Origin: an uncultured Pseudomonadota bacterium
GTDB lineage: Bacteria > Myxococcota_A > UBA796 > GCA-2862545
NCBI GenBank assembly: GCA_913061235.1
Contig: CAJXTB010000006.1
Location: 62,001 to 126,000, forward strand
DNA length: 64,000 bases
Direction: 5' to 3'
Shown: positions 54,469 to 62,232 of the stretch, in pieces
Numbering within the stretch: position 1 is the first letter of the stretch
How the letters are laid out: every line of letters begins with the position of its first letter
Translations under genes and position numbers: made by a program
Notes under the pieces: model-generated
The model's database searches: none
What the model saw: only the letters and a program-made list of their open reading frames with translations
What the model was told of the DNA's origin: nothing

Positions 54469-54556
54469 GGGGTGCCACGAATCTAGGGGCCATCTGGACT
54501 CCGTTGGCGCGCATTGGCATCGCATTTGCAGCCGTACAGGTCATAGGAGGCTCCCC

Positions 54557-55813
54557 ATGCGCCACATTCTCTCATTGTCCCTGTTGTTCCTCACGGCTTG
54601 TCCAGAACAGACCGAACCTGAGCCAAACCCGAATCGCGTCGCACGAGTCGTGGTCAGTGCCGACGGCGATGTTGGCGCGGTGGTCCAAGGCCACAACGAA
54701 TTCACCTTCGATCTGTACGCAGGGCTGGTTCAGACCGCAGGAGACGACAACGTCTTCTACTCGCCCTTCTCCACAACCACGGCTCTCGGCATGACGATGG
54801 CCGGCGCCGAGGGAGTCACCGAGACCGAGATGATGGATGTTCTCGGCGTCTCGATTGAACAGGCCGATTGGCACACGGCGCTCGGGTCATTGACGCGCGA
54901 CCTGTCAGGTGACTTGGACCGTGGCTACACGCTTCACGTCGCCAACCGCATCTTTGGACAGACCGACTACCCGTGGGAGCAGCCCTTCCTCGACGTGTGC
55001 GAGTCCGACTACGACGCTCCACTGGAGGCGTGGGACTTCGCGTCAGACCCAGAGGGCGGCCGAGAGTTGGTGAACGACTGGGTCGCAGAACAGACCGAGG
55101 ACCTGATTGAAGACCTGCTGCCGGCAGGGTCGGTGACTGCTGACACCCGAATGGTGCTGGCGAATGCCATCTACTTCTTGGCAGACTGGGAGACACCGTT
55201 CGACCCCGACCAGACGAATGATGGCGCCTTCACCCTGCTAGACGACAGCACCGTCACCGTGCCGCTGATGTTCTTGGACACCGAAGAGCGCGAAGAGCAC
55301 GGCATTCAGCTCGGCTGGGTGGATGATGTGAGCGTTGCCCGCATGCCGTACCAAGATGGCGAGGTCTCCATGGTCTTGCTGGTGCCAGACGCTGCAGACG
55401 GTCTTGCCGCACTTGAGACGGGTCTGGATGCTGCGGCCTACGCGACCTACCTCGGCGCTCTAAGCGACGGCGACGGCGTTGTGGTCATGCCGCGAATTGA
55501 GATGGAGTACGAGGTTGAGCTGAAAGACGTGATGGCTGACCTTGGCATGGCGAGTGCGTTCGACAGCGCCACCGCCGACTTCACTGGCATGGCAGACGCA
55601 GCAGACGGACAGCTACACATCGACGGCATCTTCCACAAAGCCTTCGTGTCGATCGACGAGTACGGCACAGAGGCAGCCGCAGCCACGGCGGTGGTTGTGG
55701 GCGTGGACTCCGCTCCGCCACAGGTGCGTGCTGACCATCCATTCCTGTTCGTCGTCCAAGACGACCTGACAGGCGCCATCCTGTTCGTCGGTCGTGTCAC
55801 AGACCCGAGCTAG
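54557..55813 (+). CDS. Lipoprotein serpin with predicted P1 Asp
   Basis: A 418-residue serine-protease-inhibitor-fold protein exported as a lipoprotein (SLLFLTAC, Cys15). Serpin landmarks: NVFYSPFSTTTALGM, NAIYFLADWETPFD, and the C-terminal signature VRADHPFLFVV (390-400). The hinge is inhibitory in type: E368-Y-G-T-E-A-A-A-A-T-A. Counting from the hinge exactly as in alpha-1-antitrypsin, with no gap up to the PPxV and HPF landmarks, gives P1 = Asp384 and P1' = Ser385. P1 Asp is rare and occurs in CrmA, a caspase inhibitor. AGGAGG precedes the ATG. Confidence 0.88.
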   Translation: MRHILSLSLLFLTACPEQTEPEPNPNRVARVVVSADGDVGAVVQGHNEFTFDLYAGLVQTAGDDNVFYSPFSTTTALGMTMAGAEGVTETEMMDVLGVSIEQADWHTALGSLTRDLSGDLDRGYTLHVANRIFGQTDYPWEQPFLDVCESDYDAPLEAWDFASDPEGGRELVNDWVAEQTEDLIEDLLPAGSVTADTRMVLANAIYFLADWETPFDPDQTNDGAFTLLDDSTVTVPLMFLDTEEREEHGIQLGWVDDVSVARMPYQDGEVSMVLLVPDAADGLAALETGLDAAAYATYLGALSDGDGVVVMPRIEMEYEVELKDVMADLGMASAFDSATADFTGMADAADGQLHIDGIFHKAFVSIDEYGTEAAAATAVVVGVDSAPPQVRADHPFLFVVQDDLTGAILFVGRVTDPS

Positions 55814-60474: not shown

Positions 60475-62232
60475 ATGCGCTCTGTACCCTTCGTCTTGCT
60501 GATCGCTCTGTCTGCATGCCGAGACACCGACTCCAGTGACCGATTCGCCGCACTTGAGGCGGAGCTGGCCGAGGTTCGGGCTGAGTTGGACGCGCTGCGC
60601 GAGGACCCCGTGGGACTCGACATCGAGGGCCTCTCGGCCGGGGTAGATGCGAACACCGCCGCCATCTCCACCCAAGGTACCGAACAGGGTGCACTCTCGG
60701 AGGCGCTGACCGCTCTGACCGCACGCGTCGAAGCTGTGGAAGGCGCTCTGGGAACCACGGGTACCGATCTAGGCGCTTTCGTCGACCGTCTCGCCGCACT
60801 CGAGTCAGAGGACGTCGACATCAACACACGCATCGGTGTGGTTCAGGACCTCATTGAGGCCATTGACTCCCGAGTCATCACCGTCGAAGGCGACTACGTC
60901 GTGTCCACCACACTGGACGGCGTGCTCACCGAGGCCATGCTCGGAGACGACTTCGCGGACTTGCAGGCGCTCTTGGACGCCGTCACCGCCAACGAGGACG
61001 GCCTCGCAGATGCGGCCGAGCGCCTCGACACGGTGGATGCAGAGGGTGTCAGCCAAGATGAGCTGAACGAGCTGGTCTTGGTGACGGAGGACCTGGACGG
61101 TCGCCTGACGGATGTGGAGGCCGACTACCTGATGTCCAGCGACCTGCTCGACGTGGACAGTCGCCTCACGGATGTGGAGTCCGACTATGTGCAGTCCAGT
61201 GACCTGCTCGACGTGGACGGTCGCCTCGCCGATGTCGAGTCCGACTATGTGCAGTCCAGTGATCTGGTGAACATCGACGCACGTATCTCAAGCATTGAGG
61301 GGGACTACCTGACCAACACGGATCGGGATGACCTCGACATGCGCATTCTCGATATCGAGGGGGACTACGTGACGAGCAGCGCCACAAGCGACCTCGATGT
61401 GCGTATTTCCGACGTTGAGTCTGACTACCTGACGTCGCTTGACCTCGATGACCTCGACAACCGAGTTGGGCTCATTGAGAGCGACTACATCGGCGGTCCC
61501 GAGTTCGACAGCTTGGTGACGGACGTCAGCCAGATCAGCAGCGACTACATCACCAGTGGTGACCTCGGAATCGTGCAAGGCCAAGTCGACGACATCCTGT
61601 CCGACTACGCCACAGCGACAAGCCTTGGGGAGCTCGACCTTCGCATCACGGATGTTGAGGTCGACTACCTGACCTCGTTCGACCGCGACAACTTCGACGG
61701 TGAGCTGTCCAGCCTGACCGACCTGCTTGGTGGTGTTGAGATGGACTACCAGAGCGCCGACGACGACTTGCTCGGGCTCATCAGCGACAATGAATCTGCG
61801 ATTCAGGACATTGGGGGCGCCGAGCGGCAAGAGGTCTTCCGCTTGGCTTCGGGAGGCGGTTCCTGGAACAACGCGACCACATGGCGCGCGCACAATGGCG
61901 GAGCTGTCGGCACGGTCACTGTGCCGGACCGCCCATTCAACTGGGCGCTGGTGTTGGCAGGACACTACGTGGATGACTCCGGCAAGACCATGCGCTTTCG
62001 GTTGAGGTACGTGGACTCTGCGACCGGAGATATCCACTATCTGCCCAGTAGCAGCGGCTTCCGAAAGTACGTCTATGTGGACCATAGCCGTCTTGAAGAG
62101 CAGACAATGGTCGGCGTTAACGAGCTACCTGCCGGTGACTACGACGTGCGCTTGGAGTTCTACCAGGAGACTGGCTCCGGTCTGTACGCCTGGAGCTCAT
62201 CGTACGGGCAGATTGTCCATACGGTCTGGTAG
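60475..62232 (+). CDS. Lipoprotein with 20-residue repeats and C-terminal head
   Basis: A 585-residue lipoprotein (VLLIALSAC, Cys15) with an N-terminal coiled coil (FAALEAELAEVRAELDALR), then ten consecutive 20-residue units (encoded at 61081-61680) with an invariant D-Y pair at positions 15-16, and a head from about residue 445 (FRLASGGGSWNNATTWRAHNG), ending SSYGQIVHTVW. The regular repeats suggest a trimeric fibre like a phage tail fibre or YadA-type stalk. The head differs from those of the other stem proteins. Confidence 0.8.
   Translation: MRSVPFVLLIALSACRDTDSSDRFAALEAELAEVRAELDALREDPVGLDIEGLSAGVDANTAAISTQGTEQGALSEALTALTARVEAVEGALGTTGTDLGAFVDRLAALESEDVDINTRIGVVQDLIEAIDSRVITVEGDYVVSTTLDGVLTEAMLGDDFADLQALLDAVTANEDGLADAAERLDTVDAEGVSQDELNELVLVTEDLDGRLTDVEADYLMSSDLLDVDSRLTDVESDYVQSSDLLDVDGRLADVESDYVQSSDLVNIDARISSIEGDYLTNTDRDDLDMRILDIEGDYVTSSATSDLDVRISDVESDYLTSLDLDDLDNRVGLIESDYIGGPEFDSLVTDVSQISSDYITSGDLGIVQGQVDDILSDYATATSLGELDLRITDVEVDYLTSFDRDNFDGELSSLTDLLGGVEMDYQSADDDLLGLISDNESAIQDIGGAERQEVFRLASGGGSWNNATTWRAHNGGAVGTVTVPDRPFNWALVLAGHYVDDSGKTMRFRLRYVDSATGDIHYLPSSSGFRKYVYVDHSRLEEQTMVGVNELPAGDYDVRLEFYQETGSGLYAWSSSYGQIVHTVW
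61081..61680 (+). repeat. Ten tandem 60 bp repeats in register
   Basis: Ten units of exactly 60 bases without insertion or deletion; units 61141 and 61201 differ at only a few bases, others are much more diverged. Each keeps a GA(C/T)-TA(C/T) Asp-Tyr pair in the same place. The repeat is coding, so this is not a CRISPR array. Confidence 0.85.

Follow-up and report, generated by a model that had tools for sequence, protein, structure and literature searches.

The gene at positions 54557 to 55813 (+ strand) of the window, the whole 64,000-nucleotide stretch of DNA analyzed here, encodes a full-length member of the serpin superfamily (PF00079; MEROPS I4). Its predicted fold, hinge, lipoprotein motif, P1 register, and the conservation of an acidic residue at P1 among its nearest relatives are observed. 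We consider it about evenly balanced that the protein is an exported, lipid-anchored serpin of the inhibitory type that would trap secreted serine proteases that cut after, or tolerate, acidic residues; the inhibition, cut site, acidic specificity, and targets in this explanation are predicted ones.

The serpin gene, its signal sequence, and its fold

The open reading frame (ORF) runs from an ATG at 54557 to the stop codon ending at 55813 and specifies 418 amino acids. The ribosome-binding sequence AGGAGG lies just upstream (54545 to 54550, + strand), which favors this ATG over the longer, TTG-initiated ORF from 54371. The N terminus, MRHILSLSLLFLTAC (54557 to 54601, + strand), has a short N-region, a hydrophobic stretch, and, as a motif match, the lipobox LTAC with Cys15; most of the related serpins in the order likewise begin with a lipobox-like sequence. 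On these motifs, the protein is probably lipid anchored in the cell envelope. The remainder of the ORF is a single Serpin domain (PF00079; E = 3.4e-100; residues 46 to 417), and the mature protein has a pI of about 4.05.

Structure prediction, proposed earlier as a check, returned a serpin fold. The AlphaFold model, built from a 34-sequence alignment, has a mean pLDDT of 88.9 and aligned (VIA-align) to antithrombin 1br8 with a Z score of 50.6 and 1.8 Å over 365 residues. Fold matches at Z near 50 included antithrombin, PAI-2, and tick and other serpins, and miropin (5ncs) was also among the matches. Alignment shows little or no variation at the serpin landmark residues S69, S72, N203, W211, and H360. 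The sole stretch with a pLDDT below 50 is residues 374 to 385, in the middle of the reactive center loop, which in this model is consistent with an exposed, flexible loop. Together, hinge and fold are far outside chance expectation.

The serpin lies among genes for a cNMP-binding protein, a CBS-domain protein, a methyltransferase, a wax-ester-synthase-type acyltransferase, and a MORN-repeat protein. No protease gene or evident operon partner was found among the neighbors scanned, and the surroundings of the serpin gene showed no notable promoter or repeat signal. Other genes flank the nearest homolog (L081 and L034 denote one gene); no conserved neighborhood was seen. Further along the window, positions 60475 to 62232 (+ strand) encode a large, lipoprotein-like protein in which a degenerate repeat of the 'DLDxRLTDVESDYVxSSD' type recurs many times.

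The reactive center loop and its P1 register

The hinge, P17 to P8, is EYGTEAAAAT (E368 to T377; 55658 to 55687, + strand); it matches the P17-P9 consensus ExGTEAAAA with small residues, a consensus by which inhibitory prokaryotic serpins are recognized (PMC8233489), and in the alignment of relatives P17 and P15 to P8 are invariant. The remaining loop, from P7 to the HPF motif (A378 to F396), occupies 55688 to 55744 (+ strand). The distance from P17 to PF is 29 residues, equal to that in alpha-1-antitrypsin (Glu342 to Phe370). Counting from P17 at E368 places D384 at P1 and S385 at P1′ (55706 to 55711, + strand), preceded by a Val-rich stretch, A-V-V-V-G-V, so that P4 to P1 read V-G-V-D.

This register is sound when calibrated on chloropin of Chlorobium limicola (PDB 8gxv), the best PDB sequence match (E = 1.2e-61). 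Chloropin has the same hinge, P17-P1 spacing, and Ser at P1′, and mass spectrometry with thrombin and KLK7, the proteases that it inhibits, confirmed Arg383 as its P1; the Arg itself and these targets set it apart from the window serpin (PMC10090351). In this register Ser is also the most frequent P1′ residue, both among 52 serpins of the same order (25/52) and among 78 further bacterial and archaeal serpins picked for a conserved-motif pattern and for their resemblance to the query (29/78), which supports the aligned P1. The first-pass annotation had described an inhibitory-type hinge, a loop as long as that of alpha-1-antitrypsin, and a P1-P1′ pair at Asp384-Ser385. Hinge and length were borne out, and the pair is the best available prediction. 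By analogy, the actual cut may lie elsewhere, as in siropins 1 and 2, which are cut after Val at P3-P2 and P6-P5, away from the aligned P1 (PMC5127057).

Acidic P1 residues within the order

An alignment-based scan of genome contigs found relatives (a single-sequence scan gave no confirmed relative), and widening the serpin search from order to class added none. The 7.2-Mb genome holds four serpins, with P1-P1′ of D-S (the window serpin), E-S (a paralog with 59% identity), and T-S and L-S (a tandem pair). The paralog (C6:38194-39306; L003/L060) shares the lipoprotein-type N terminus, the hinge, V-V-V-G-V before P1, and Ser at P1′, but its P1 is Glu. The tandem pair (L001/L002; C10:43149-45508), whose P1 residues are Leu and Thr, are lipoprotein serpins too; a MYXO-CTERM-like, trypsin-like protease with Asp189 is encoded near them on the same strand (C10:46659-47315).

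With D/E making up about 15% of residues in these proteins, a lone P1 Asp is not beyond chance, and it gains meaning only because the nearest clade keeps the position acidic. At P1 the three closest homologs, the paralog included, have Asp, Glu, and Glu; the conserved trait, judged by sequence, is therefore acidic-Ser rather than Asp. In a tree built without loop positions P7 to P5′, the window serpin, L034, L060, and L035 form a clade (SH-aLRT, 89) with P1-P1′ of DS, DS, ES, and ES, acidic-Ser in 4/4 members. Asp and Glu also swap in a second pair (L043, Glu; L045, Asp).

Across the order, P1 is acidic in 16/52 serpins versus 4/78 elsewhere (Fisher, 1e-4, with relatedness ignored), and acidic-Ser occupies P1-P1′ in 13/52 versus 3/78 (relatedness again ignored); outside the order the usual P1 is Thr (38/78). 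Acidic P1 residues occur in several separate places of the tree within the order and require at least 11 changes, pointing to repeated gain or loss. Acidic residues are enriched in the order at P2, P3′, and P4′ as well, and part of the P1 signal may therefore reflect a general acidic drift of the loop.

Proteases encoded in the same genome

Among the trypsin-like proteases of this genome, twelve have a readable S1 pocket: five carry Asp189, four Ser189, and one each Glu189, Gly189, and Arg189-Lys190. The last is P0002 (L173/L187; C29:71315-72469, minus strand), an S1A-like protein predicted to be secreted and bearing a MYXO-CTERM sorting domain, whose pocket was numbered by aligning it with a trypsin-like protease of solved structure. 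Every one of the 29 orthologous loci retrieved from the order, which span 29 genomes, retains the Arg-Lys pair. Such a basic pocket could favor an acidic P1, and P0002 is a testable endogenous candidate target, a lead rather than a finding. Co-occurrence of P0002-type proteases and acidic-P1 serpins across genomes was not significant (8/12 versus 21/51; p = 0.20).

The genome also encodes at least six C14 (caspase-like) proteins (L179, L180, L181, L182, L184, and L185), several of which begin with a probable signal peptide and are possibly exported. All six with a readable active site carry D-A-C at the active Cys. This is the metacaspase-type arrangement, which is linked to Arg/Lys specificity.

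Comparison with known serpins and alternative explanations

SERPINB9 (PI-9), whose chain 8zcr was among the PDB sequence matches, has Glu at P1, acidic as in the window serpin; it differs in being a cytosolic vertebrate inhibitor of granzyme B. Bacterial serpins that act on extracellular proteases include miropin of Tannerella forsythia, for which surface exposure has been suggested in the literature, and the siropins of Eubacterium siraeum; their targets are host or pathogen proteases. The literature search returned nothing relevant on myxobacterial serpins, on a caspase-directed bacterial serpin with P1 Asp, or on Arg189 S1 pockets.

The first-pass annotation had seen in P1 Asp the hallmark of CrmA and had proposed caspase-like or Asp-specific proteases as targets of an exported, membrane-anchored serpin. 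The lipoprotein signal motif makes export and anchoring probable; the target does not follow, given a clade with both Asp and Glu at P1, and the likeness to CrmA comes down to one residue. Caspases need Asp at P1 and favor Glu at P3, where Gly is poor; V-G-x-D is compatible with granzyme B, whose preferences P4 Val and P3 Gly fit. The alternation of Asp and Glu in the clade, with Glu in two of the three closest homologs, speaks against a caspase-like requirement for Asp and in favor of a target that takes either residue or is indifferent. The C14 proteins of the genome itself are of the D-A-C type, and no tie between the organism and an animal host was found. CrmA and Serp-2 of poxviruses share the serpin fold with the window serpin and have at P1 the Asp that is predicted for it, but they are viral, intracellular inhibitors of caspases and granzyme B, whereas the window serpin is predicted to be exported; the D294E change in Serp-2 was made to shift its inhibition spectrum (PMC3458838). 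Caspases are thus unlikely targets, and it is very improbable that the protein acts across classes as CrmA does, on caspases or granzyme-B-like enzymes of hosts or prey.

A more serious possibility, if short of an even chance, is that the protein is a miropin- or siropin-like guard of the envelope against a broad range of proteases, with A-V-V-V-G-V as bait for elastase- or subtilisin-like enzymes and the acidic P1 incidental. The Val-directed cuts in siropins 1 and 2 (PMC5127057) fit this explanation, as does miropin, which, by the title of its paper, uses different peptide bonds within its loop. P6 to P4 are mostly V, I, or M in all prokaryotic serpins sampled, the Thr so common at P1 elsewhere is a poor specificity determinant, and the acidic enrichment extends beyond P1. 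Against it, the cut in chloropin, whose hinge is equally long, falls at the aligned P1, and the window clade keeps acidic-Ser though some adjacent positions vary. A non-inhibitory or substrate-type serpin retained for another role is improbable. Conserpin carrying the antitrypsin loop shows that loop sequence alone does not set specificity and that substrate behavior is possible despite a good loop (PMC6405850). The window serpin, however, has the full consensus hinge with small residues from P15 to P8, conserved across its clade; that consensus marks inhibitory prokaryotic serpins (PMC8233489), and chloropin, which has this hinge, is an inhibitor (PMC10090351).

A model for the window serpin

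In the explanation that we prefer, an exported serpin would be held by a lipid anchor in the envelope of a Myxococcota-like bacterium that bears MYXO-CTERM domains. Once a protease had attacked the exposed loop, at Asp384-Ser385 or close by, the cleaved loop would insert into sheet A, and the protease would be trapped as an acyl-enzyme. Since P1 alternates between Asp and Glu in the clade, the targets are likely to be secreted serine proteases that cut after or tolerate acidic residues; likeliest would be glutamyl-endopeptidase-like enzymes of neighbors or the bacterium's own exported S1A proteases. With D, E, T, and L at P1, the genome's four serpins would amount to a small specificity panel guarding the cell surface. 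The known serpin mechanism would apply, and the twist is a modest one, a lineage-specific acidic P1. Our best bets for the target are glutamyl-endopeptidase-like or Arg-Lys-pocket proteases, with Val-directed broad inhibition as the main rival.

Few physiological targets of bacterial serpins are known. A caspase target should not be read off one P1 residue; with an acidic-P1 clade, the search can be confined to a small class of proteases, of which these genomes hold one concrete, testable candidate. It is doubtful, as a wider proposal, that the order several times evolved envelope serpins against acidic-cutting proteases, paired with an order-wide secreted family of S1A-like proteases with Arg189-Lys190. 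If true, these bacteria would possess a protease-serpin system of their own, with acidic specificity.
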